Part shown: positions 2,091 to 33,984 of the stretch, in pieces
Position numbering within the stretch: position 1 is the first letter of the stretch
Layout: each line of letters starts with the position of its first letter
DNA from: Flavobacteriales bacterium
GTDB taxonomy: Bacteria; Bacteroidota; Bacteroidia; Flavobacteriales_C; GCA-002722245
Reading direction: 5' to 3'
Length of the DNA stretch: 34,769 nt
NCBI GenBank assembly: GCA_023251075.1
Contig: JAHEZM010000032.1
Span: forward strand, 1 to 34,769
Translations under genes and position numbers: made by a program
The notes under the pieces: generated by a model
Databases searched by the model: none
Seen by the model: the letters and a program-made list of their open reading frames with translations, nothing else
What the model was told of the DNA's origin: nothing

Positions 2091-2929
2091 TGAACAATTG
2101 ATGTTCTGATGTTCAGCATGGTTAATTTTAACTTTGCAAAATCATCTTCCGACATGATCAGTCTTTTTGCATTTGTAATAGTACTATCCACTGGCATTTT
2201 ACTATACATATCCTGAATACTTACCAATTTGGTTTTGATTTGAGCCAAATCAGCATCTTTACAATCACCCAATAATTTTACCAGATTATCTAAAGAGGGT
2301 TTTTGTTCTGCAATTTTTTCGCGAATAAGAGTTAAGTCGTTATTCTCTGTTTTAAGTTGAGTTGCAATATAAAGAGCTTCTACCCACCCTCCTGCCATTA
2401 CAGCAGCGGCAACAGAGTGCATTTTATTTTCAAAAAGATAATTGTCGGTAGATAAATAGGCTTCACTAATGATTTGAAGCAAAGAGTCTTTTTTGTTTTG
2501 GTTGGCTTCCATTCTACTGATAGTAGATTCGTTAAAAACATCATTGATATTTAAATCGGTAGATATTTTTTGTGCTGCAATCAGATAGTTTTTTGATTCT
2601 TGTGGATGATCGAAAACAGTGGTGAAACTTAAATCGGCGAAGTAAATACCAAGATTTAATGATTTCTCCATAGATGTTACATACTGGGATATCTTTTTGT
2701 CGTCGTTCAATAATTTTGGGTCATAAATTACTTTGGCTCTTTTAATGATTTCAGCCATTTCAATAGGAGTAGGGAGTGCATCAAACACTTTTGCGGCCGA
2801 TTTAAAATCTCTCACCTGATCTGCAGAAAGATTTACTTCAGGTTTTTTTACCACAGTAGCTTCTGCAGGTTGTTCATCACAGCCAATTAACATTGTTGCC
2901 GATAAAAATAGGATAGCTCTTTTGATCAT
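2087..2929 (-). CDS. Lipoprotein of unknown function, last gene of the nadB operon
   Basis: 280 aa. The N-terminus MIKRAILFLSATMLIGC is a lipoprotein signal with the modified Cys at residue 17 (lipobox LIGC). The rest is largely alpha-helical by composition, with charged, Leu-rich segments; I recognise no catalytic motif. A segment around GIYFADLSFTTVFDH is a pattern often seen in uncharacterised Bacteroidota lipoproteins. It begins 16 nt after the methyltransferase stop, so it is probably co-transcribed with nadB and its followers. The gene converges on the LRR gene with a 4-nt overlap. Probably envelope-located; function not inferable. Confidence 0.8.
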   Translation of the reverse strand: MIKRAILFLSATMLIGCDEQPAEATVVKKPEVNLSADQVRDFKSAAKVFDALPTPIEMAEIIKRAKVIYDPKLLNDDKKISQYVTSMEKSLNLGIYFADLSFTTVFDHPQESKNYLIAAQKISTDLNINDVFNESTISRMEANQNKKDSLLQIISEAYLSTDNYLFENKMHSVAAAVMAGGWVEALYIATQLKTENNDLTLIREKIAEQKPSLDNLVKLLGDCKDADLAQIKTKLVSIQDMYSKMPVDSTITNAKRLIMSEDDFAKLKLTMLNIRTSIVH

Positions 2930-2945
2930 AATGACAGTAATATAT

Positions 2946-3677
2946 TTACAAACATACTAAATTCAAATGGATTGGAAAGGTCACCTTCAGGGCTTTGTTT
3001 ATCCATACAATTTTAAGCTTTTTTTCAATATCCAGAATAGGATCGCTACCCATTTTATTTTTGTAGTGTTGTACGCTCGACCAGCTGCTTAAGTATCCGA
3101 GATATTCTTCCAGAGTCCAGTTTACGTTATAAAAGAATTGTTTTTCTTCCATTTTCCAAGGGAAAGGAATGGATCGGTAATTGTTTTCAATGTGTTTTCT
3201 TTCCGCGTCCCAAAATGGTCCAACGATATTCGTGTAGAAATCCTTTGTAATTTCATCTACTTCCTTATTTACCGAATTTAATCCATAGCACCATGCAACA
3301 AAGGTTCCCTGTGGTTTTAATAATCGGGTTACTTCAGTGAAGAATTTTGTGAAATCGAACCAATGCAATGCCTGAGCTACAGTAATAAGATCGGCACAAT
3401 GATTAGGATAAGTTGTGTTTTCAGCTTTTTGAACAGAGTACTCAATGTTATTAGTACTGACGGCGCTATCGATTTGTTTCTGACTCAAATCGTTGGCTAA
3501 AATTGTGTTGAATTTTTTGGCTAGTATAATAGCTGCTTGCCCGTTACCCGTAGCCATATCAATAGCACAATCAAAAGTATTTACTCTTGAAAAAATAAAT
3601 TCAAATAATTCGGCAGGATATTGGGGACGATATTTTGCGTAAATATTGGCTTGTTTAGAGAAATTATCTTTACTCAT
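2946..3677 (-). CDS. Class I SAM-dependent methyltransferase
   Basis: 243 aa. Motif I is AIDMATGNGQAA at about residues 38-49, followed by the acidic post-II segment ANDLSQKQI, a motif IV-like DLITVAQALHWFD and motif VI LLKPQGTFVAW. HWFD after the motif IV strand is typical of the trans-aconitate-methyltransferase/TMT1-like branch of Methyltransf_11 proteins. It transfers a methyl group from S-adenosylmethionine to a small molecule; the substrate cannot be read from sequence. The start overlaps the upstream membrane-protein gene by 8 nt, so it is part of the nadB operon. Family is confident, substrate unknown. Confidence 0.87.
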   Translation of the reverse strand: MSKDNFSKQANIYAKYRPQYPAELFEFIFSRVNTFDCAIDMATGNGQAAIILAKKFNTILANDLSQKQIDSAVSTNNIEYSVQKAENTTYPNHCADLITVAQALHWFDFTKFFTEVTRLLKPQGTFVAWCYGLNSVNKEVDEITKDFYTNIVGPFWDAERKHIENNYRSIPFPWKMEEKQFFYNVNWTLEEYLGYLSSWSSVQHYKNKMGSDPILDIEKKLKIVWINKALKVTFPIHLNLVCL

Positions 3678-7013: not shown

Positions 7014-7030
7014 GAGGAAACAAAGTTTAA

Positions 7031-8179
7031 TTAAATATTTCTAAAGTTTATTATTCCGTTTTCTTTACTTCTGGTTTCTTCATCACCGTCATAAATTAGG
7101 CAAGTTGAAACTAAGTTATCGGTCATTATTCTTCTAAGATAATGTATGTTGTTGAAGAAATCTCTGTGAAAATGTTTCGCCGATTTAATTTCAAAGGCAT
7201 CTATATCATTTCCATTTTCGCAAATAATGTCTATTTCGTGTTGTGATTTATCTCGGTAGTAAAATAAATTAGACAGCTTACCTGCATTGAATCTTCTTTT
7301 GAGAAATTCTAGAACAATTAAATTCTCAAAGAGTCCTCCACGTAAAGGGTGAGTAGCCAATTGCTTTTCATTTTCAATACCTAACAAAAAACAGACTAAT
7401 GCTGTGTCGCAAAAATATAATTTAGGTGTTTTTATTAGTCTTTTACCTATGTTGCGATAATAGGGAGCTAAGCGAAAAATAATGTACGATGCTTCCAGTA
7501 CACTTACCCAATGTTGTATGGTGTGTACAGACACTCCGACTTCACTGCTTAGAGCGGACGCATTGAATTCCGTGCCGATTCTTCCTGCACAAAGTCGAAT
7601 AAATAATTGAAATTTTGACAGATCTTTTATATTGAGCAATTGTCTTACATCTCTTTCGATATAGGTGTTGTAATAATTTTTGCTAGTATCTTGAGGAGGT
7701 GTCTTTTTCCCCCAAACAGCTGGATATCCGCCATTTATTATAAGCGTATCGGTGTTGATGGTTTTAATTCTTCTTCCTAATTCCTTTAAACTAAACGGTA
7801 AAAGAGTTAGTGTTGCTGCTCGACCTGCAAGCGATTGGGTAACTTTTTCCATTAAGCTAAAGTTACTGCTACCTGTAAGAACAAATTGTGCTTTTTTGTT
7901 CTCATCGGCTACTACTTGTAGATAAGAAAATAACTCAGGATATCTTTGTGCTTCATCAATGATAATTCCTTTTGAATGTTGTTTTAGAAATTCTTTTGGC
8001 GATAATTCAATGTGTTGTCTGATACTAGCATCTTCCAAGTTTACATAGTGATAATTTTTAAAAACCATTTTACATAAAGTGGTTTTTCCTGACTGACGAG
8101 GACCTGTAAGTACTATGATTTGAAAGTGCTTTGATAGGTGTTCTAATTCACTCTGTATTTCTCTGTTTATAAAAGCCAT
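7031..8179 (-). CDS. AAA_14 / DUF4143 family ATPase
   Basis: 382 aa. Walker A GPRQSGKT at residues 26-33, Walker B GIIIDEAQRYP at about 71-81, and a sensor-1-like FVLTGSSNF at about 99-107 define the AAA_14 domain. The second half is a DUF4143 domain: a winged-helix-like segment (LSSEVGVSVHTIQHWVSVL) and a C-terminal PD-(D/E)xK-like region (HEIDIICENGNDIDAFEIKSAK). This large bacterial/archaeal family has no agreed function; stand-alone, poorly conserved copies are typical. The ATG lies only 4 nt downstream of a perfect -7 box, and a 27-bp palindrome fills the promoter spacer (see findings). It looks like an autonomous, self-regulated unit. Confidence 0.9.
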   Translation of the reverse strand: MAFINREIQSELEHLSKHFQIIVLTGPRQSGKTTLCKMVFKNYHYVNLEDASIRQHIELSPKEFLKQHSKGIIIDEAQRYPELFSYLQVVADENKKAQFVLTGSSNFSLMEKVTQSLAGRAATLTLLPFSLKELGRRIKTINTDTLIINGGYPAVWGKKTPPQDTSKNYYNTYIERDVRQLLNIKDLSKFQLFIRLCAGRIGTEFNASALSSEVGVSVHTIQHWVSVLEASYIIFRLAPYYRNIGKRLIKTPKLYFCDTALVCFLLGIENEKQLATHPLRGGLFENLIVLEFLKRRFNAGKLSNLFYYRDKSQHEIDIICENGNDIDAFEIKSAKHFHRDFFNNIHYLRRIMTDNLVSTCLIYDGDEETRSKENGIINFRNI

Positions 8180-8183
8180 GATT

Positions 8184-8213
8184 CAAATATACAAATTTGA
8201 AGTTGAACTTCAA
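8184..8213 (-). promoter_or_regulatory. Promoter of the AAA_14/DUF4143 gene, with embedded operator
   Basis: On the minus strand: TTG (8213-8211), 19-nt spacer, TATATTTG (8191-8184), then the start codon 4 nt later. The predicted transcription start falls at or next to the ATG, so the mRNA should be leaderless or nearly so. The spacer and -33 lie in the palindrome at 8192-8218. Confidence 0.75.
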
Positions 8214-8218
8214 ATTTG
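8192..8218. promoter_or_regulatory. 27-bp perfect palindrome, putative operator
   Basis: Arms CAAATTTGAAGTT and AACTTCAAATTTG (13 bp each) around a single G. It exactly fills the space between -7 and beyond -33 of the ATPase promoter, where a bound dimeric repressor would block polymerase. It is not followed by a T-tract on the minus strand and precedes a gene, so a terminator is less likely. Confidence 0.65.
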
Positions 8219-8317
8219 GCTAAAGCTAATTTTTTGGAATAGATTATTGAATCATTGTTTGTAATACTGAAGAATAAATAAAGCGATTTTTATATTGATT
8301 TTTTAAACACAGATCAC

Positions 8318-13306: not shown

Positions 13307-13331
13307 AAAACCCTCAGAATGTGAGGGTTTT
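13307..13331 (-). terminator. Rho-independent terminator of tRNA-Val
   Basis: Perfect 10-bp stem (AAAACCCTCA / TGAGGGTTTT) with a 5-nt loop directly after the tRNA on the minus strand, followed by a run of T on that strand (A7 at 13304-13310 on the plus strand). Confidence 0.88.
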
Positions 13332-13332
13332 G

Positions 13333-13407
13333 TGGGAGCTACAGGATTCGAACCTGTGACCCTCTGCTTGTAAGGCAGATGCTCTGAACCAGCTGAGCTA
13401 AGCTCCC
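13333..13407 (-). tRNA. tRNA-Val (anticodon UAC)
   Basis: 75 nt. The acceptor stem GGGAGCT pairs with AGCTCCC, discriminator A; the D arm is TAGCTCAGCTGGTTCAGAGCA; the anticodon arm is TCTGC-CTTACAA-GCAGA with anticodon TAC; the T arm contains GGTTCGAATCC. The CCA end is not encoded (ACAA follows). It stands alone, with its own promoter and terminator. Confidence 0.97.
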
Positions 13408-19965: not shown

Positions 19966-19999
19966 AAGCTGAGTTAAGAATAATTTCTTAACTCAGCTT
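19966..19999 (-). terminator. Terminator of the chitinase gene
   Basis: Perfect 15-bp stem (AAGCTGAGTTAAGAA / TTCTTAACTCAGCTT) with a 4-nt loop, starting 6 nt after the chitinase stop and followed on the minus strand by a T-rich tract (TCTTTCTTCTC). It separates the chitinase from the desaturase gene. Confidence 0.8.
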
Positions 20000-20005
20000 A
20001 AGAAA

Positions 20006-21271
20006 TTATTCAACCATCATTGTTTTGATAGTGCTTTGTTGGTTGTTTAGAATCTGAATATAATACAATCCTTTACTTAAATCAGAAGCATCAAAAGAAA
20101 TTTGATGATCTCCTGCAGCCAAATTTGCTTGGTGAATTAATTGAACTTCTTGTCCTAACTGATTTACTATTTTAATAGTGGTGAAAGAAGCATTTTCTGT
20201 ATTCAATTGAACATAACCGGTTTTTGAACATGGATTCGGGTAAACAGAAAAATCATTAACATTAGTTACTTCTTCCTGAGCGGTACTACATACTGTGATT
20301 TGATCATAAATTGCACTTAATAATGATTTTGCTCCGGTAGCATCTTCTGTTAATTGCCAAATCATAATTCCACCTCCGTTGGCACAAGCATAAGTTGTTT
20401 TTTGTTGAATGGTTGGAATACCATTGTAAGAAATCATATTGGGACTTGTTCCAATTTTATCTTTTGTTTCGGCATTGGCATAAGTAGCAACAATAGTTGA
20501 ATAAGCTATTTCCTGACTGTTAGCGTATGATCCCCAACCGTATCCATAGAAAGGTACACCGATTACCAGTTTAGATCCGGGAACACCTTTGGTGTTTTTC
20601 CAATAATTAAAATCAGATACCGCCTGGTTATAGGTAGAATGTTCACCTGCATTGTCGGAAGGCAACACTGCATCATACGACATGATATTGATCCAATCGT
20701 ATTGGGCTGCTGCAAGATTAGTTACGTTAGATCCAAACCAGTTGGCAAGTGCGGAACTCATTTTGAAATTGGCATTGTGTAATGCTGTGCCCAAAGCGGT
20801 TACAAATGTTTCATATTGAGCTTTGGTTACATAAGATCCGTTTAACACATCTCCTTCTATATCTACATCAATACCGTCTAATGAGTTGTTAGTGCAGTAA
20901 TTTACTAAGTTGGTAACGAAAGTATTCATCTTGGTAGAGTTACTCATAATTCCTTGGTAAGTGCTGCCCGATGCTCCAGCCCCACCAATAGATAAGAATA
21001 CTTTTACATTTTGATTGTGGCAAGCAGTTACAACAGTAGCCAGGTGGGAAGTAGTTCGACCATCTGCTAAAATAATTGCGGCAGAACTGTTGGGGTTGGC
21101 GAAGGCAACATTTAAATGGGTTAATTTTGTGAGCTGCACGCTATTTACACTATTGGGAAAACCAGCCCATGTGGGTAGGTAACCAATAATTTTGGGTTGT
21201 GCGAAAAGTTGTACGGAACAAATAAATAAGAAAGTGATTAAGCACAAAACGGGGTAGGTTTGTTTTTTCAT
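20006..21271 (-). CDS. Secreted GH18 chitinase with type IX (type A) sorting tail
   Basis: 421 aa. Signal peptide 1-24 (LITFLFICSVQLFAQ). The GH18 barrel starts KIIGYLPTWAGF; the catalytic motif DGIDVDIE is at residues 132-139 with E139 as acid; SIGG (about 94-97), NIMSYDA and GIMIWQLTED are the other barrel signatures. It cleaves internal beta-1,4 bonds of chitin. Residues about 345-421 (VYPNPCSKTGYVQL, then DLSKGLYYIQI) form a type IX secretion type A C-terminal sorting domain, so the enzyme should cross the outer membrane and be anchored or released. No carbohydrate-binding module is seen. Followed by a strong terminator; its promoter is not clear in the 180 bp upstream. Confidence 0.93.
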   Translation of the reverse strand: MKKQTYPVLCLITFLFICSVQLFAQPKIIGYLPTWAGFPNSVNSVQLTKLTHLNVAFANPNSSAAIILADGRTTSHLATVVTACHNQNVKVFLSIGGAGASGSTYQGIMSNSTKMNTFVTNLVNYCTNNSLDGIDVDIEGDVLNGSYVTKAQYETFVTALGTALHNANFKMSSALANWFGSNVTNLAAAQYDWINIMSYDAVLPSDNAGEHSTYNQAVSDFNYWKNTKGVPGSKLVIGVPFYGYGWGSYANSQEIAYSTIVATYANAETKDKIGTSPNMISYNGIPTIQQKTTYACANGGGIMIWQLTEDATGAKSLLSAIYDQITVCSTAQEEVTNVNDFSVYPNPCSKTGYVQLNTENASFTTIKIVNQLGQEVQLIHQANLAAGDHQISFDASDLSKGLYYIQILNNQQSTIKTMMVE

Positions 21272-22663: not shown

Positions 22664-25600
22664 ATGAAAAGTTTACACTTTTTATTTCTTTCTTTTGTTC
22701 TATTTGGTGCGCAGATAATGCAAGCTCAGAACGATTGTCCGGCAGAACCAGAAACCGGAAAGTTTGATCCCTTAACTTATATCAAAGCTTCAACTCCTAC
22801 GGATCCTTCAAAAGGAACAGGTATTTGGTTAGGACAAGGAACTATTCTTCGCAATGGCTCGGAGGTTCGTCCGGCTTTTATTCCTTCCAATCATCCAGAA
22901 TGGGCATTGGCGATTGCTGTGGCTTGGAATTATTCGAGAAACGTGATTCAACGTGTGGAATACCCTCAAATTGGATATTGGTTAGGAACGGTAGTTCAAG
23001 AGACCGAGTTGGGTTGTGTTACAGGAACCACATGGACTCCTGCCAGCCATGCCTCCAACAATATGGCGAATGCCACTACCATCATGAATCACGATGGTTG
23101 TTATCAAATTGAAGGTCCTGGATCAGCCTATGGTCAGTTGAACCAAAACTATCCTTTGGGTCGTTTTCCCTTATCGATGCATCCTAATTTGATTATGGGG
23201 CCAACTAATTTTGAAACCTCTTCGATGGTTAAATCTTATTTCGATGTTTATACTGCTGAAGTTTATAACAATCAAGTGGGGTGGGATATTTATCAAAGTA
23301 TTGATTGTACCACAGATCCCTACGCCTATATAAAAACATCGGCATCGGGATACAATGGTGGTATTAACGCTTTTGCAGGTAATGCTTCAAAGTTTAATGG
23401 TAGTCAGAACAACAACAATTGTTGGGGAGGTATGTCTGCAACAACTGCAAATTATGCTAATGATGTAGCAAAATGGGTTTCTGTATTAGAGAATAATACT
23501 TCATATTGCGAATATCCAACAGGGAGTTCTTTTGATTCTTATTATAATAACGACATGACCTGGACGATGGTAAGCAATTACATCAACAGCATTAAAATCA
23601 TGTATCCGGAGGTAAACTGGGCTTCCGTTACCGCTTCTGTTCAGGCAACCTTTAATAGTTTGGCAGTGGGTGGTGTTATTAAATTCGAGCAAATGGGAGA
23701 TGTAATCGATGCCATTGTTCTTAATTTGCCTCGCGATTATCCTCAAACAGTGGAAGGTTCTCCAATAGGGGTTGATGTTTTTGGCTGTTCGGGTAAAAAA
23801 GTTCCTTATGGTCATTTTGAACTTTTGAATGGTACACAATCACTTTGTATTGGTGAGTCGGTAACATTGAATATGGTAGTTGATGCCGGAGGTGGTACAA
23901 CACCAACTTTTAAATGGTATAAAACTTCTGCACCGGCAACTATTTTAGCCACTACTCAGTCATTTACTATTACTCCAACCGTTGCGGGAAGTGAAGTGTA
24001 TGCGGGTGAAATTTGTAATACGGCAGGATGTTTCAGATTAGGTTGTAATAATTACAATTCCTGTATGGATTCACGAGATTTATGCGGCGTTAAAATTGAC
24101 GCGAAGCAATGTAATACCTGTTCTTTTACAGCTACTGCGAATTCTGTAAACACACCTTGTAAGGGTTCTACGGATGGAAAAATTAATTTAACTTTTACCA
24201 ATACTCCCGCAAAATATATAATTAGCTATACCGCTACAACACCTGCCGGTACTACGGTAGCTGTTTTAGATACTTTAACCGGAAACACTGCTACAATCAA
24301 TAATATTAGAGATGGATCCTATAACATTCAAGTTACCGACGTAAGTGATCCTACCTGTAAAGCACGCACTACTGTTATTGTTGGATACAACGTAAACACC
24401 AATTTTTATGTAGATGCAAATATTTTGAGTACAGCCAATTGTGTTGCTAATTTAAAAGCAGAAGTAAAAGAATTGCCAGCTCCATGTAATTGGAAAGTTA
24501 GGGTTCATGTACCTGTTTATTTCTGGTGGGAAAATGCAGTAAATTTCGGGGTAACAACTTCAACAGGATTGGCTAATAGTGATCATTATACCCGTACTGC
24601 ACCACAAGGAGAAATTGATCCATACAATCCTGCTCAAATTTATGAATCTGTTTTCTCATTAAATACGGGTGATGATATGACTTTTGAATTGGCATTAACC
24701 AATACTCCGGGTGCATCACAGATTAGAGATTATCAGATTACAGTGTGGGATGAAAATAATGTGCAGGTATATACGAAATTAGTTAAAGATCATTCAGCAC
24801 AACCAGATGCACCATTTACTGCAGGTAATTATAAAGTAACTTGTCCGGCAACTATTCCAACCTACACTTTCACCTGGTCACCTGCCCTTAATGGAGAATC
24901 GCACACGAATACCACATCAACAGGTTCCGCCACTGTTGATAAATCGGCCGATGTGGTATATAGTGTAACTGCCATAAGTAGTTCCGCTCCAACTTGCCCG
25001 TTGAAAGATGTGGTTACTGTTAATCATGATCCTAGTTGTAATACTACTCCATGTGTTAAGCCTTCCGCTACTATTAGTGGTGGGGCAGGAATTTGCAATG
25101 GAGATTCAACGCAATTATCGGTTGCATTAACAGGTACTCAACCCTGGAAAATTAAATACAACAACGGTGGAACTCCTGTTATAAAATCAGGAATCACCAG
25201 TAGCCCTTACACTTTTTATGTAAAAACTGCCGGTACTTATAAAGTAGATAGTGTTTGGGATTCTAAGTGTGATACGGCTGGAAAAGGATCGGCAGTAGTT
25301 ACAGTGAATCCTTCGCCAAGTATTACTATTTCCGGAGATACATCAATATGTGCAGGGGAAACAGCAACATTAACGCTTAATTTAACAGGAACTGCTCCAT
25401 ACAATATTGTGGCAAGTTTAGGCAGTAATAGTGTGCCTTACACCACTAGTTTGAGTACATACACCTTACCTATAACTGTTCCGGGTACCTATACTTTGAA
25501 AGTAACAGATGCTACAGGTTGCTCATTTACTAAAAAAGTAACGGTGATTGTTTCTCCTTTGCCCACTTTGGAAATTGGTCCGGATCAAAGTATTTGTTCG

Positions 25601-28084
25601 GGTTCTACTGTTACTCTGGATGCAGGCGCGGTTTTTCCAAATTATGCGTGGACGGGCGTAAAAACCGGAACCAACAAAACTATTGTAGCTGATCTTCCGG
25701 GAAAATATAAATTGGTAATTACGGATGCCAATGGTTGTAAAGCTAGCGACAGTTTGAATGTTGCTCAGGGTACAGCCGTAGTGATTGATTTTGGTGGTAG
25801 TACTAAAACCATTTGTCAGGGAACTAATGTAGTACTTCAACCTACTGTTTCCGGAGGTGATGGAAATTATACTTACAAATGGAGCAACGCTGCATCGGGT
25901 AGTGCAAATTCTTTCACTGCATCAGCCGCTGGTTATTATACTTTAGAAGTTACCGATGGTATTGGATGTAAAGATAAAGACAGCGCTAATGTTACCGTAA
26001 GCACCAGTTTAACGGTTAATTTAGCTGATGCTACTATTTGTAGCGGAGATAGTATTATTTTAAATAGCGGATACAGTGGAGCAGGATATGGTTTTACCTG
26101 GAATACTGGTGCAACCACACCTACCATTGTAGCAAAAACTGCAGGAAAATATAAAGTTGTAGTTGATAATAATGGTTGTAGCGGAACCGACAGTATGACT
26201 TTAACTCTGAATACTCTACCTACTGCGAATTTAGGTGCTGATAAAAATGTGTGTGCAGGGAGTACAGTTGTACTCGATGCAGGTTCATTCAAAACTTATG
26301 CGTGGAGTACTACTGAAAGTACCCAAACAGTAAATAAAGGAGTGGGAACTTATATGGTTACAGTGGAGGATAACAATGGCTGTAAAGATTCTGATACAAT
26401 TAATGTTGTGGCCACTCCAAAACCAAGTCCTAATGTTATTGTAGATCAGCAAACCTGTCCGGGAAGTAATGTTACTTTCGATATTAGTTCTTACAATAAT
26501 GGTAATGGTCCTTATACCTATAAATGGGATAATAGCAGCACGGCATCTACATTAACCTTATCCAACGTTGCAGTAAATTCATTGCACTATGTGGATGTAA
26601 CCGATAAGTATAATTGTACAGGAAGAGATACAGCGAATGTAATTGTAAAAGCTAATCTATCGGTTCAAATTACAGGAACTCCTGACACTGCAATGTGTGC
26701 CGGTTCGAGCATTACTCTCGCTTCTAATTACAATGCTGCGGGAGGATATAATTTGAGTTGGAGTACAGGTTCTACGGCTGATAATATTGTAGTGAGTACA
26801 GCAGGAAATATTACGCTAACGGTAGATGATGGTAATGGATGTTCGGGTAGCGATGTTTTAAATGTTGTGGTTCATAATGCTCCTGATATGACTTTAATTC
26901 CTGTGGCTGCCTCTGTTTGTAGTGGTGATGCTGCTGTTTTGGGGCATAACTACGGAGCAGGATATACTTATTTGTGGACTCCAGGAAATGCAACAACTGC
27001 CACCATTAGCACTACCAATGGTGGTGCATATACTGTAGTAGTTACCAATACATCAACAGGTTGTTTTGCCGATACCTCTGTTACTGTTACATCGAACAGC
27101 AAACCATTAATCGATTTAGGAAATAGTATTGATACTTGTGCCGGAGTGAGTATGACTTTAGCGGATATTAGCGGACAAACAGGTGTTACTTATTCATGGA
27201 CTAAAACAACTACCGGAGCTGCTGTTATCGGAACTTCTTCAACTTTCGTGGCCAGTACTAGTGATACCTATCAGTTAAAAATAACTGATGCAAATACCTG
27301 TACCAATAGCGATGCAGTGAATGTAAATTTCAGGGCAATGCCGAATGTGAATTTAATTAATGGTTTAGATAGTGCATTTATCTGCGGTATTGAAACAATT
27401 AATTTGAATGCTGGAAATATAGGAATGACCTATCATTGGTTGCCGGGTAATGAAACAACGCAAACAATAACGGTTTCAACCAGTAACGATTATTCAGTGG
27501 AGGTAAGCAATGGAAATTGTAAAGCTACCGATAAGGTTTATGTGAGTAAAGTGGTTCTTCCGGAAGGAGTACTGAACGATAAAATTGGTGCCTTACAACC
27601 CAACTATTGTTTCGTTGAAGAGAAAAATGGTGTTACACTTTCAGCATTGGGAACCGATGGAATTACCTATAATTATTTGTGGAATACAGGCGCTACAACA
27701 TCGAGTATTAATATCACTCAGGAAGGAACATATGCAGTAACTATTAGTAAAGATAAATGTCAGGTTTCTGATGTAACTACGCTAATAGATTATTGTCCTA
27801 CTACCTTCTTTATTCCTGATGCATTCACTCCAAACGGAGATCATAAAAATGATGTATTTAAAATTTACGCATCCAACGTTCCTAACTTTGAAATCTTAAT
27901 TTTTAATCGTTGGGGAGAGCAAATTTACCGCAGTACAGATATCAATCAAGCTTGGGATGGTACCTATGGTGGAGCAAAAGTACAACAAGATGTGTATGTG
28001 GTAAAAGTGATGTACGACGTTAATTTAGAAACCGGAAAAACCAGTAGAAAAGAAAGATTAAGTAAGTTGGCTGTGGTATATTAG
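22664..28084 (+). CDS. Giant type IX-secreted protein with possible lysozyme-fold N-domain and Ig-like repeats
   Basis: 1806 aa. Signal peptide about 1-21 (FLSFVLFGAQIMQAQ). Residues about 60-280 are a globular domain with VVQETELG (E113), GCYQIEGPGSAYGQL (145-159), HPNLI and SGYNGG (228-233), an order that recalls GH19/GH23 lysozyme-fold enzymes; unproven. One Ig-like unit is at about 385-470; SprB-like and another beta domain (NTPCKGSTDGKINLTF) are at about 485-790. Residues about 797-1710 are roughly 12 Ig/PKD-like units with the signature xCxG ... YxW ... GxYxVxVxDxxGC. Residues about 1715-1806 (FIPDAFTPNGDHKNDVF, FNRWGEQIY, WDGTYGG) are the gliding-motility-associated type B sorting domain. 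It is cell-surface or released; paralogous C-terminally to the gene at 30247. A strong terminator follows. Confidence 0.93.
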   Translation: MKSLHFLFLSFVLFGAQIMQAQNDCPAEPETGKFDPLTYIKASTPTDPSKGTGIWLGQGTILRNGSEVRPAFIPSNHPEWALAIAVAWNYSRNVIQRVEYPQIGYWLGTVVQETELGCVTGTTWTPASHASNNMANATTIMNHDGCYQIEGPGSAYGQLNQNYPLGRFPLSMHPNLIMGPTNFETSSMVKSYFDVYTAEVYNNQVGWDIYQSIDCTTDPYAYIKTSASGYNGGINAFAGNASKFNGSQNNNNCWGGMSATTANYANDVAKWVSVLENNTSYCEYPTGSSFDSYYNNDMTWTMVSNYINSIKIMYPEVNWASVTASVQATFNSLAVGGVIKFEQMGDVIDAIVLNLPRDYPQTVEGSPIGVDVFGCSGKKVPYGHFELLNGTQSLCIGESVTLNMVVDAGGGTTPTFKWYKTSAPATILATTQSFTITPTVAGSEVYAGEICNTAGCFRLGCNNYNSCMDSRDLCGVKIDAKQCNTCSFTATANSVNTPCKGSTDGKINLTFTNTPAKYIISYTATTPAGTTVAVLDTLTGNTATINNIRDGSYNIQVTDVSDPTCKARTTVIVGYNVNTNFYVDANILSTANCVANLKAEVKELPAPCNWKVRVHVPVYFWWENAVNFGVTTSTGLANSDHYTRTAPQGEIDPYNPAQIYESVFSLNTGDDMTFELALTNTPGASQIRDYQITVWDENNVQVYTKLVKDHSAQPDAPFTAGNYKVTCPATIPTYTFTWSPALNGESHTNTTSTGSATVDKSADVVYSVTAISSSAPTCPLKDVVTVNHDPSCNTTPCVKPSATISGGAGICNGDSTQLSVALTGTQPWKIKYNNGGTPVIKSGITSSPYTFYVKTAGTYKVDSVWDSKCDTAGKGSAVVTVNPSPSITISGDTSICAGETATLTLNLTGTAPYNIVASLGSNSVPYTTSLSTYTLPITVPGTYTLKVTDATGCSFTKKVTVIVSPLPTLEIGPDQSICSGSTVTLDAGAVFPNYAWTGVKTGTNKTIVADLPGKYKLVITDANGCKASDSLNVAQGTAVVIDFGGSTKTICQGTNVVLQPTVSGGDGNYTYKWSNAASGSANSFTASAAGYYTLEVTDGIGCKDKDSANVTVSTSLTVNLADATICSGDSIILNSGYSGAGYGFTWNTGATTPTIVAKTAGKYKVVVDNNGCSGTDSMTLTLNTLPTANLGADKNVCAGSTVVLDAGSFKTYAWSTTESTQTVNKGVGTYMVTVEDNNGCKDSDTINVVATPKPSPNVIVDQQTCPGSNVTFDISSYNNGNGPYTYKWDNSSTASTLTLSNVAVNSLHYVDVTDKYNCTGRDTANVIVKANLSVQITGTPDTAMCAGSSITLASNYNAAGGYNLSWSTGSTADNIVVSTAGNITLTVDDGNGCSGSDVLNVVVHNAPDMTLIPVAASVCSGDAAVLGHNYGAGYTYLWTPGNATTATISTTNGGAYTVVVTNTSTGCFADTSVTVTSNSKPLIDLGNSIDTCAGVSMTLADISGQTGVTYSWTKTTTGAAVIGTSSTFVASTSDTYQLKITDANTCTNSDAVNVNFRAMPNVNLINGLDSAFICGIETINLNAGNIGMTYHWLPGNETTQTITVSTSNDYSVEVSNGNCKATDKVYVSKVVLPEGVLNDKIGALQPNYCFVEEKNGVTLSALGTDGITYNYLWNTGATTSSINITQEGTYAVTISKDKCQVSDVTTLIDYCPTTFFIPDAFTPNGDHKNDVFKIYASNVPNFEILIFNRWGEQIYRSTDINQAWDGTYGGAKVQQDVYVVKVMYDVNLETGKTSRKERLSKLAVVY

Positions 28085-29348: not shown

Positions 29349-30104
29349 TTATCTTACAAAAATCCATTCCTTTTCGCTCGATAATTTTTCGTTAAAAAAA
29401 TATTTTTCGCTATTGAAGTTTTTCAATTTTTCAACGTTTGAAATTTCATTTTTGATGATGTAATTCGCCATCATACCACTTGCTTTTTTGGCGAACACCA
29501 TTACGGTTTTATATTCTTTTCCTTTTTTTTCCTTGAACTGGCAGCTTACAATTTGTGCTGATATTTTTTGGGTGTTGATGACTTTAAAATACTCATTGGA
29601 AGCAAGGTTGATAAGAGCTTCTCCTTTCAATTCAGAATTTAATTGTTGTGTTACTTTTTCTTGCCAAAAGGAATAAAGATTTTTGTGTTTTTTGGGTCCC
29701 CATGAAGTGCCCATTTCCAAGCGATAAGGTTGTATTAAATCTAAAGGTTTAAGTATGCCGTAAAGTCCCGATAAAATTCTTAAATTTTCTTGAGCAAAAT
29801 CTAATTCTTTCTTGCTGAAATGATAGGCATCTAACCCATTGGCTACCTCCCCATCAAATGCAAATACTGCTGGTCGCGAATTTTTAACACTGTGTTTTTC
29901 TGTAAAATTTTGGTATCGTTGAAAGTTCAACTCACTTAACTTCTCACTTAATTCCATTAAACGACCTATTTTTTTAATAGACATTTTACGCAGTCCTCCA
30001 ATTAATTCCATGCTTTGAGGAATGAATACTGGGGTACTTGATTTTGAGCTGGGTAATTTCGAATCGAAATCGAGTGTTTTAGCCGGAGACAAAAGGATTT
30101 TCAT
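29349..30104 (-). CDS. yaaA: YaaA family peroxide-stress protein
   Basis: 251 aa (E. coli YaaA is 258). N-terminus MKILLSPAKTLDF is diagnostic; LSGLYGILKPLDLIQPYRLEMG and NLASNEYFKVI are further family signatures. YaaA limits free intracellular iron and protects DNA during peroxide stress; it is cytoplasmic and DNA-binding in E. coli. The frame is open to an ATG at 30128, but that ATG overlaps the TATGTTTG promoter box, so the second ATG at 30104 (the canonical N-terminus) is the start. Monocistronic, divergent from the second giant protein. Confidence 0.94.
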   Translation of the reverse strand: MKILLSPAKTLDFDSKLPSSKSSTPVFIPQSMELIGGLRKMSIKKIGRLMELSEKLSELNFQRYQNFTEKHSVKNSRPAVFAFDGEVANGLDAYHFSKKELDFAQENLRILSGLYGILKPLDLIQPYRLEMGTSWGPKKHKNLYSFWQEKVTQQLNSELKGEALINLASNEYFKVINTQKISAQIVSCQFKEKKGKEYKTVMVFAKKASGMMANYIIKNEISNVEKLKNFNSEKYFFNEKLSSEKEWIFVR

Positions 30105-30121
30105 GCTTCGTGGTTTGTTTA

Positions 30122-30152
30122 CAAACATAGAATATACTCTTCTTAATCACAA
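30122..30152 (-). promoter_or_regulatory. Promoter of yaaA
   Basis: Minus strand: TTG (30152-30150), 20-nt spacer, TATGTTTG (30129-30122). The leader to the ATG at 30104 would be about 10 nt. Confidence 0.75.
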
Positions 30153-30202
30153 GAAAATTGACCTACTAGCAGTTGGAAGAGTAAAACACTGCTTTTATTT
30201 TT

Positions 30203-30232
30203 TTGCCTATGTGCTTTTTTGTCCCTATTTTG
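30203..30232 (+). promoter_or_regulatory. Candidate promoter of the 1245-aa protein
   Basis: TTG (30203-30205), 20-nt spacer, TATTTTG (30226-30232), 14 nt before the ATG. The -7 form is one base shorter than consensus and the same as the one ahead of the paralogue at 22664. Confidence 0.4.
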
Positions 30233-30246
30233 AATTCACATTTGCT

Positions 30247-33200
30247 ATGAGAAAACGGTTCGCCCTTTCTGTTTTATTTACCTTAATTTTTTGTGGAGCT
30301 TTTTCACAGAACGTGGCTTTGTTCCCTATTTGCAACCCGGGATCGATCAGTTTAGGAAACGACGTAACGTTTTGTAGTGGTGATAGTGTTACTTTCACTG
30401 CCAATGGAACTTATGATCGTTTTGTTTGGAATACCGGAGCTTCTGGCCCATCGTTGAAAGTAAAAACCAGTGGAACTTATATTGTTCATGGATTAAAATC
30501 GGCCACTGTGGAGTTGATTAATAATGGGAATTTCAATACCAATACCGTTAATTTTACTAGTGATTACACTAATGCAGTAGGTAATTTGCAGTACGATGTA
30601 ATCAGTCAGCCCAACTATTATAAAATTGTTCCAAAAACAGATGATGCTTATTGGGATTTTACGAATACCTGCATGGATCACACTTCGGCTAATTTATCGA
30701 GTAATATGCTGGCGGTAAACGGTTATAAATTGTCGACTACCAAAAAAATATGGTGTCAAACAGTGGCCGTAAATGCCAATCAAAATTATACTTTATCGGC
30801 ATGGGCTGCCACGATGGGTAAAGATGGAATTGCGAATATTAATCCTGCCAAATTGCAGTTTAAAATTAACAATGTAGTGGTAGGTTCAACACTTAACCTA
30901 ACTACCACCACTTGTGATTGGAAAAATTTTACCAATACCTGGGCTTCAGGAGTAAATACTTCTGCCCAGGTTTGTATTTACGATATTTATAACGACTTAA
31001 ATGGTAATGGAAATGACTTTGCTATAGATGATATTTCGCTTAAAACTGTTGATACCTGTAGGGTTTCCGATACTGTTGTGGTAATAGTAAATCCTAAACC
31101 AGTAGTAAATTTAGGAAATGATGTTTCTACTTGTAGCGGTGCTTCAGTGGCGTTAACGGTGCCTAATACTCAACCATCGTGGACTTATTTTTGGAGTACT
31201 TCCGAAACTACTAATCCTATTTCAGTTTCTGCCTCAGGAACTTATTCGGTAACGGTTACCGATAACAAAGGATGCACAGGTAATGATAATATTGGAGTTA
31301 CTTTCAATAACAATTCAACAATCAGTTTAGGTAATGATATCAGTCAGTGTGGGGGCTCGGTGAATTTAGATGCAGGAGCAGGTTTTACTACTTATGCTTG
31401 GAGCGGAGTAAAAACGGGAAGTGGTCAAACTATGTTGGCTGATGTCTCCGGTCAGTATATTGTTTCAGCCAGCAATGGCTCTTGTAATGCAAAAGACACC
31501 ATCAATGTAAATTTATATTCCCTTCCAACAGTAAATTTGGGTCCGGATCAAACTTCTTGTACAGGAAATGTGGTGGTGAAAGCGGGTCCGAATTTCGCTT
31601 CTTATTTGTGGAGTAATGCAATCTCAGGGCCGATCGATTCTAATATTACCGTTAATTCTTCTTCCTCTGTTTGGGTGGAGGTGACTAACAATAATAATTG
31701 TAAAGATCGTGATACGATGCAGGTGAATATTGTAAATAATTTGGTGATTAATTTAGGTAACGACACCAATGTTTGTGGAACTTCTTTGTTGTTGGATGCC
31801 GGTGCCGGATTGTCTTCTTACACTTGGAGCGGAATAAAAAGTGGTAGCGGAAGAACAATGCTGGCCGATGTTTCGGGTGAATATATTATCGATGCAAGTT
31901 CGGGTTCTTGTTCTGATATAGATACCATCAATGTTACTTTACACTCTTTGCCAACAGTGAATTTAGGGAATGATCAATCTACCTGTTCAGGAAATATTAT
32001 TTTACATGCCGGACCAACTTTTTCTTCTTATTTGTGGAGTGATGCAACCACAGATTCTACGCTAACTAGCAGCGGACAGGGAACTTACTGGGTGGAAGTA
32101 AGCGATAATTTTCAATGTAAAGATCGCGATACTGTTATTGTAACTTCAGCCAATGTTCCTGTAATAAATTTAGGAGCAGATGTTAGTGTTTGTGCCGGAG
32201 TAGTTACGAATTTGAATGCCGGTTCGGGTTTTACTTCTTACACTTGGAGTGGCGCAAAAAGCGGAACTTCACAAAGTATCATCGCTGATGTTACAGGTGT
32301 TTATTATGTGGAAGGAATGTTGGGTGGATGTTTTGCAAGAGATACAATAAACATTGCGATTAACTCGCTCCCCACGGCTAATATTGGTAATGATCAAACT
32401 CTTTGTACCGGAGGAACAGCAAATTTTAACGCAGGATCTTTTACTTCTTATTTATGGAGTGATGCAAGTACCAATTCAACTTTTTCTACAAATATATCAG
32501 GTACTTATTGGGTGGAGGTGACCGATAACAAAGGTTGTAAAGACAGAGATAGTGCAGTAGTTACTGTGGTAAATTCATTGGTGCTAAACATTGGTGGAAA
32601 TAAATCTATTTGTAATGGAGCTTCTATTGTTTTAAATGCGGGAAGTGGATTTGTTTCTTATGCATGGACGGGTGTTAAAACAGGAAGCGCACAAAATATT
32701 ACAGCGGATATTGCGGGAAAATATAAAGTGGTAGTAACTGCTGCCGGAGGTTGTACTGCTGCTGATAGCATGACATTATCGTTTTATCCTGTCCCTGTAG
32801 TGAGTTTAGGTAATGATGTTAATGTGTGCGAAGGTTCTACTGCTACCATTACCGCCACTGCTGGTTTTAACTCTTATTTATGGTCAACAGGCGAATCTAC
32901 TGCAAGCATTACTAAAGGACAGGGAACTTACAACGTTCAGGTTCGTGATGCCAATAATTGTGGTGCAAAAGACACTATCATTCTTACTTCGGTTTCATTA
33001 CCACAAGTGAATATTGGAAATGATGTGGTGGCTTGTGATGGAGTTACTCAAACTTTTCAGGATAATATTAATCAAGCCGGGGTGACTTATTCATGGACCG
33101 CACAAAGTTCAGGTGCTGTTTTAGGAACGGCATCATCACAAGATGTTTACACTTCCGATAAATATATTTTAACTGCTACCGATCCAAACAATTGTAAAGC

Positions 33201-33984
33201 AAGTGATACTGCTGAGGCTACTTTTTTAGCATTACCCAATGCTGAAATACTAAATGTGGTTGATACTACAGTGATTTGTGAAGGCAATAATAAAATTTTA
33301 AAAGCCACCGATTTTGGTCAGAATATTACTTATTTCTGGACTTACAGTAAAGAGACTACTCAGAGTGTTAACGCGAAAACAACAGGTTGGTATCAGGTGA
33401 TAGTTTATAATGGATATTGTACCGATACTGATGCAATATACTTGCGTGTGGTTAGCTTACCTAAAACTGCTCTTAATGATACGGTGAATATTATTCAACC
33501 CAATTATTGCTTTATAGAAGAAACGAATGGGGTGGTGTTGGATGCTTCCTCCAACGATGGGATAAATTATAATTATTTATGGAGCACTGGAGAAACAACT
33601 TCTTCTATAATTATAAATGCAGAAGGTACTTATTCAGTGAATTTAGAAGTAGATGGTTGCACTGCTTCCGATAAAATTAAAATCATTGATTATTGTCCAA
33701 CCAAAGTTTTTATTCCTAACGCTTTCACTCCAAACAACGATGCTAAAAATGATCTTTTTAAAGCGCGTGGAGAATATGTTGAAGATTTTGAAATGTATAT
33801 TTTTAATCGCTGGGGAGAATTAATTTTTCATGGAAATGGTTTGTCCACAGGTTGGGATGGAACATATGGAGGAGTTCGCGTTCAACAAGATGTTTATGTT
33901 TACAAAGTGAGTTATAAATCAAATGAACCCAATGGTGTTGATGCTGCTCATGAAGAATTAGGAAAGGTAGTGGTGGTTTATTAA
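30247..33984 (+). CDS. Giant type IX-secreted protein with double-module Ig-like repeats
   Basis: 1245 aa. Signal peptide MRKRFALSVLFTLIFCGAFSQ. One Ig-like unit is followed by an inserted jelly-roll domain (about residues 87-268; VELINNGNFNTNT ... FAIDDISLKT), the pattern of CBM4_9/choice-of-anchor modules. Then come about 12 Ig-like units; residues 359-920 consist of four double modules of 142, 139, 140 and 141 aa. The unit signature is LGxDxxxCxG ... AGxxFxSYxW. The last ~90 residues (FIPNAFTPNNDAKNDLF, FNRWGELIF, WDGTYGG) are the type B type IX sorting domain. The open frame extends 75 codons upstream into the divergent yaaA region, but only the ATG at 30247 gives a signal peptide. Probably a surface adhesin or matrix protein. 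Gene arfB follows 16 nt later with no terminator. Confidence 0.92.
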   Translation: MRKRFALSVLFTLIFCGAFSQNVALFPICNPGSISLGNDVTFCSGDSVTFTANGTYDRFVWNTGASGPSLKVKTSGTYIVHGLKSATVELINNGNFNTNTVNFTSDYTNAVGNLQYDVISQPNYYKIVPKTDDAYWDFTNTCMDHTSANLSSNMLAVNGYKLSTTKKIWCQTVAVNANQNYTLSAWAATMGKDGIANINPAKLQFKINNVVVGSTLNLTTTTCDWKNFTNTWASGVNTSAQVCIYDIYNDLNGNGNDFAIDDISLKTVDTCRVSDTVVVIVNPKPVVNLGNDVSTCSGASVALTVPNTQPSWTYFWSTSETTNPISVSASGTYSVTVTDNKGCTGNDNIGVTFNNNSTISLGNDISQCGGSVNLDAGAGFTTYAWSGVKTGSGQTMLADVSGQYIVSASNGSCNAKDTINVNLYSLPTVNLGPDQTSCTGNVVVKAGPNFASYLWSNAISGPIDSNITVNSSSSVWVEVTNNNNCKDRDTMQVNIVNNLVINLGNDTNVCGTSLLLDAGAGLSSYTWSGIKSGSGRTMLADVSGEYIIDASSGSCSDIDTINVTLHSLPTVNLGNDQSTCSGNIILHAGPTFSSYLWSDATTDSTLTSSGQGTYWVEVSDNFQCKDRDTVIVTSANVPVINLGADVSVCAGVVTNLNAGSGFTSYTWSGAKSGTSQSIIADVTGVYYVEGMLGGCFARDTINIAINSLPTANIGNDQTLCTGGTANFNAGSFTSYLWSDASTNSTFSTNISGTYWVEVTDNKGCKDRDSAVVTVVNSLVLNIGGNKSICNGASIVLNAGSGFVSYAWTGVKTGSAQNITADIAGKYKVVVTAAGGCTAADSMTLSFYPVPVVSLGNDVNVCEGSTATITATAGFNSYLWSTGESTASITKGQGTYNVQVRDANNCGAKDTIILTSVSLPQVNIGNDVVACDGVTQTFQDNINQAGVTYSWTAQSSGAVLGTASSQDVYTSDKYILTATDPNNCKASDTAEATFLALPNAEILNVVDTTVICEGNNKILKATDFGQNITYFWTYSKETTQSVNAKTTGWYQVIVYNGYCTDTDAIYLRVVSLPKTALNDTVNIIQPNYCFIEETNGVVLDASSNDGINYNYLWSTGETTSSIIINAEGTYSVNLEVDGCTASDKIKIIDYCPTKVFIPNAFTPNNDAKNDLFKARGEYVEDFEMYIFNRWGELIFHGNGLSTGWDGTYGGVRVQQDVYVYKVSYKSNEPNGVDAAHEELGKVVVVY

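Follow-up and report, generated by a model that had tools for sequence, protein, structure and literature searches.

The promoter palindrome of an AAA_14/DUF4143 ATPase gene as a probable operator for its own product

The ATPase gene and its surroundings

The stretch of DNA considered here, referred to as the window, is 34,769 nucleotides long and comes from a member of the Flavobacteriales. Its minus strand carries a gene (7031–8179) for an AAA_14/DUF4143 protein of 382 amino acids, P0001, which combines a STAND-type NTPase, a winged helix and a PD-(D/E)XK domain. It stands by itself as an insertion between two convergent genes, nfu and a gene for a 338-aa protein (interval 7014–8317). These two genes are adjacent, with no ATPase gene between them, in four congeneric genomes, and elsewhere the neighbours of the ATPase gene are unrelated.

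Further along the window are two very large proteins (22664–28084 and 30022–33984) carrying CHU_C type IX secretion signal domains as well as Ig-like domains. Two long inverted repeats, AAGCTGAGTTAAGAATAATTTCTTAACTCAGCTT and GAATAATTTCTTAACTCAGCTTAAGAAATTATTC (19966–20011), overlap each other where a GH18 gene with a secretion tail ends, and may form either a terminator or two alternative hairpins. A terminator-like hairpin, AAAACCCTCAGAATGTGAGGGTTTT (13307–13331), lies beside a tRNA gene (13333–13407, minus strand). This tRNA was the sole Rfam match in the window, and no known RNA element was found at the promoter palindrome described below.

P0001 matches the Pfam families PF13173 (107 bits, cut-off 27) and PF13635 (170 bits, cut-off 28), both above the gathering score, and the PADLOC PDC-S01 profiles with an E-value of 5e-99. 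Towards its N-terminus the protein is an NTPase of the STAND type, with invariant Walker-type residues (G26, G31, K32, T34, D75 and E76), and the modelled structure of this part matches those of 2qen, 2fna and NLRs. In the AlphaFold model (pLDDT 92.7), residues 218–230, encoded at 7490–7528 on the minus strand, make up a helix in the winged-helix segment, taken to be the recognition helix. The C-terminal domain is modelled with a PD-(D/E)XK fold and matches the nuclease Can2 (E 4e-4, probability 1.00) and, less closely, McrC and Hjc. This putative nuclease domain has the acidic/lysine motif of the fold, E285, E315, D317, E330 and K332, which is invariant in 61 proteins (the last four residues lie within 7184–7237, minus strand). 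Residues K311 and S312 (7244–7249, minus strand) sit in a loop of this domain joining strands 305–310 and 315–322.

The STAND NTPases PABY2304 (2qen) and SSO1545 (2fna) share the NTPase and winged-helix fold over about 245 residues (Z 16.7 and 15.8). Their alignment ends at about residue 267, so that the PD-(D/E)XK domain falls outside the match.

By profile, the family is PDC-S01, predicted to provide defence as a single-gene system, a point absent from the earlier note on this DNA. PDC-S01 is described as an ATPase fused to PD-(D/E)XK that ranks fourth in abundance among the predicted defences of prokaryotes, at tens of thousands of copies; validation is pending for most PDCs (PMC12988326). 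The passages of that paper located by term search do not mention an operator or regulation of PDC-S01, and a literature search found no description of how DUF4143 genes are regulated. A DUF4143 gene of Thermus thermophilus HB27 rose 6.6-fold in the presence of a plasmid in an Ago-containing strain (PMC4406477), which indicates that the transcript level of such a gene can change.

A palindrome in the promoter, private to each gene

Directly before the ATPase gene lies a perfect palindrome of 27 bp, CAAATTTGAAGTT-G-AACTTCAAATTTG (8192–8218, minus strand), the core of the putative operator. The earlier note had described two 13-bp arms flanking a single G, with the TTG of the –33 element in the distal arm, a –7 box touching the proximal end and a start codon 4 nt beyond that box, and each element was found in its place by sequence and repeat search. 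The TTG occupies 8213–8211 on the minus strand, 19 bp from the –7 box TATATTTG (8191–8184), whose consensus and position follow PMC9723704, and the ATG is at 8179–8177. In Flavobacterium psychrophilum, the –7 box was mapped at –12 to –5 (PMC9723704). This spacing would place +1 at the A of the ATG, and the promoter is thus predicted to be leaderless.

When the whole window was shuffled into 200 first-order Markov copies and searched for perfect inverted repeats with loops of 0–4, the arms never exceeded 12 bp. Arms of 13 bp are thus unlikely to arise by chance, although on their own they are not extreme; the strong evidence is their recurrence. The source genome has five family members by sequence search, the window gene included, and four of the five have a perfect inverted repeat at the same position just before the gene. 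The arms are 13 bp in the window gene (L011) and 22 bp in the other three, with a loop of 22 nt in L013 and of 5 in L014 (the third is L012). The four repeats all differ in sequence.

The survey was then taken to relatives from the same genus and family, a 395-genome sample of the phylum and a scan of genome contigs, later joined by plasmid and phage loci; it covered bacteria, mostly Bacteroidota. A palindrome score of at least 9 was reached by 51% of 123 family starts; among 177 starts of neighbouring genes the share was 1.7%, and among shuffled sequences 1.5% (Mann–Whitney p about 2e-28, a nominal value given that related sequences do not count as independent). Roughly one in five of the genes surveyed has no clear dyad. 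The earlier note had turned to orthologous or paralogous promoters as the place where its proposal could fail, and palindromes are present in four of the five paralogs and in most relatives. The palindrome is a family-wide element whose sequence is private to each gene, which the earlier note had not recognised.

The centres of these sites were picked from symmetry alone. At least 14 of 18 pairs are kept in 64% of family sites, compared with 0.3% of coding controls, and the two-fold axis falls on a base pair (an odd centre) in 109 of 125 sites. Aligned on their centres, 67 non-redundant sites yield a 37-bp consensus near TTATRCAATTTGnAAGTTnAACTTnCAAATTGYATAA. Pairing is 84–99% at distances d = 12–16 from the centre, 81–90% at d = 5–8 and 63–78% at the centre itself, and symmetry is down to background by about d = 20. 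The arms differ among the sites yet remain complementary: position 14 may be G, A, T or C and is still 99% symmetric, and position 16, where all four bases also occur, is 90% symmetric. In four genes (L102, L041, L066 and L100) the arms are 24–32 bp long (32 in L102, 28 in L041) and exceed the 37-bp dyad, for which the operator model gives no explanation.

In this register, the window's dyad runs from 8187 to 8223 on the minus strand, centred at 8205, with 15 of 18 pairs kept. It spans the –33 element and the spacer and reaches into the –7 box with its promoter-proximal outer arm. In L030, L031, L033 and L051, the –7 box is instead at the upstream edge of the dyad, and in Treponema and Moraxella plasmid genes the dyad overlaps a sigma70-type promoter, by inspection. 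The site thus overlaps the gene's own promoter, as the operator of an autogenous repressor should.

Several members without a clear dyad have direct repeats in its place, in three copies each by inspection, with a period of 22 bp in L109 and L179 and of 23 bp in L163. Longer periods, 32–33 bp, were found in one Treponema gene and several weak matches. Among the weakly matching relatives, L019, L023, L026, L027 and L028 have direct repeats upstream of the gene at a period of 33 bp, which may represent a further operator geometry.

Since the gene is a lone insertion whose neighbours elsewhere are unrelated, whatever reads its private site must move along with it. Where close copies lie in different contexts, the similarity of their DNA often starts 18–26 bp away from the centre of the dyad and stops close to the stop codon, so that operator and gene move as a unit. 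The one insertion examined closely replaced about 100 bp, with about 23 bp extra on the left, and showed neither the clean edges nor the target duplication of a transposable element, so that a transposition mechanism is not claimed. The palindrome was also considered as one of two transposon ends, and this was rejected for want of a systematic 3′ partner and for the imprecision of the insertion. A strong 3′ palindrome is present in 22% of cases and is terminator-like where inspected. The paralog L013 has a 58-bp perfect palindrome without a loop directly after its stop codon. On an Emticicia plasmid (L162), the ATPase gene (2498–3664) lies between two arabinose genes, those for L-ribulose-5-phosphate 4-epimerase and araA, on the opposite strand, and is thus a single-gene insertion within a sugar pathway cluster.

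Two of the paralog operators were sought elsewhere in the genome. That of L012 is unique. That of the window gene has 14 matches including the true site, against 7 for a reversed control that undercounts chance because it is not palindromic; the matches elsewhere are degenerate, with 2–3 mismatches. As neither paralog operator has another good match, no regulon is visible.

Protein residues that covary with the dyad

For 107 proteins (effective number 55), the mutual information of alignment columns with the bases of the dyad was computed. The top pairs in the winged helix were 219–d5 (19.5 sd), 218–d7 (18.7) and 219–d6 (17.0), and those in the nuclease-domain loop were 312–d16 (15.4), 311–d15 (11.5) and 311–d14 (10.9). 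The maximum among 13,428 null pairs with flanking bases, 22–57 from the centre, was 4.8 sd. At d5, G goes with K at residue 219, C with N and A with P; K311 goes with G at d15, and at d16 N312 goes with A and D312 with C. In the window copy, K311 disagrees with the right outer arm, the arm that overlaps the –7 box.

When trained on proteins of less than 55% identity, base prediction reached an accuracy of 0.67–0.82 against a majority baseline of 0.37–0.57, and each named residue was the top predictor of its base, ranking first of 370 columns. The signal came from this prediction and from column-wise mutual information; a partial Mantel test by region gave no information. Viral contigs, used as an independent set, provided only eight sites with clear dyads, two of them identical. 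There, 219–d6 (12 of 16, baseline 4) and 312–d16 (12 of 14, baseline 0) both hold, and 219–d5 holds weakly (12 of 16, baseline 9). The pairs 218–d7, 311–d14 and 311–d15 were no better than baseline in these eight sites.

The direct-repeat sites are relevant here as well. The half-site of L109, which was excluded from training, fits the code at all four residues (218, 219, 311 and 312), and the site of L163 fits at residues 218 and 219. These sites suggest one half-site per protomer.

The earlier note had put forward the ATPase's own winged helix as a possible dimeric reader of the site. The covariation of the start of the recognition helix with the inner dyad bases supports this proposal. The association of nuclease-domain residues 311 and 312 with the outer half-sites had not been part of it. 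The comparative support that the AAA_14/DUF4143 protein binds its own promoter site is strong, although coevolution is an association and the binding itself is inferred.

Probable autogenous control and its alternatives

The palindrome is very probably an autogenous operator, to which the AAA_14/DUF4143 protein encoded next to it would bind as a symmetric dimer, repressing its own gene. In each protomer, the N-terminus of the recognition helix (217–222) would read the base pairs 5–7 from the centre, and the PD-(D/E)XK loop (311–312) those at 14–16. The protein would presumably be a dimer in solution as well. As the site lies over the –33 element and spacer in some genes and over the –7 box or the start site in others, the bound protein would exclude RNA polymerase and keep the gene at a low level; repression is thus suggested by where the site lies. 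A phage trigger, or activation of the ATPase, may then relieve it. With one private site per paralog, several copies could be regulated separately in one cell.

The same palindrome could act as a hairpin or cruciform, in DNA or RNA, that is recognised by its shape, for example by a nuclease domain like that of a Holliday-junction resolvase. The perfect arms of up to 32 bp, the compensatory changes between arms and the weak structural match of the C-terminal domain to Hjc resolvases agree with such a role. However, pairing is lowest at the centre (63–78%) and highest at d = 12–16, the opposite of what a stem requires, and particular residues predict particular bases. The direct repeats of some relatives are unable to form a hairpin, and the site in the window precedes the point at which the transcript is predicted to begin, all of which makes a shape-recognised structure very improbable. 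Palindromes in promoters are ordinary operators of host repressors, and an unrelated host transcription factor might bind this one too. This is hardly credible when four paralogs in one genome have four different palindromes and, across phyla, the sites change in step with residues of the encoded protein.

The site might instead be mainly a cleavage target, with the PD-(D/E)XK domain cutting or nicking its own promoter palindrome and thereby moving the gene, or killing the cell when activated. In favour of this, the loop at 311–312 adjoins the invariant E315 and D317, and the motif does not vary among 61 proteins. The gene is also inserted singly, and copies in different contexts often share homology from the outer edge of the dyad onwards. 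Nevertheless, the site is intact beside the gene in the copies seen, the one examined insertion replaced about 100 bp without clean edges, no systematic partner site was found at the 3′ end, and a cut in the right arm would often break the promoter or start codon; such a role is improbable. It is also unlikely that the protein activates its promoter, or both activates and represses it, as do C proteins, which bind operators in their own promoters (PMC12707154). The dyads lie over the –33 element and spacer or over the –7 box and start site, which are usually repressing positions.

Autogenous repression has parallels in known systems. The nuclease I-TevI represses its own gene through a site overlapping the promoter (PMC3943268), much as would be the case here. 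I-TevI, however, belongs to the GIY-YIG enzymes and has an operator similar to its cleavage target, whereas here a private dyad covaries with winged-helix and PD-(D/E)XK residues of a STAND ATPase. The C proteins of type II restriction-modification systems likewise control a DNA-targeting system autogenously, from operators within their own promoters (PMC12707154). They are mostly separate HTH regulators, unlike the present case, in which the operator would be read by the effector itself, using two modules. For PDC-S01, to which P0001 belongs by profile, a self-operator is new as far as the literature was searched.

A more speculative and rather doubtful extension of autogenous repression is that the operator serves as both brake and sensor. 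The STAND ATPase-nuclease would be parked on its own promoter with the nuclease loop on the outer half-sites, and activation would either release it or trigger cutting, coupling derepression or destruction of the locus to defence.

A self-encoded operator would provide a DNA ligand for a PDC-S01 protein and a readout of its activating stimulus, and the residue-to-base code can be tested through swaps of one or two residues. If the proposed reading is correct, a single protein reads DNA with both its winged helix and its nuclease domain, and this would account for how several paralogs may be kept in one cell without cross-talk.
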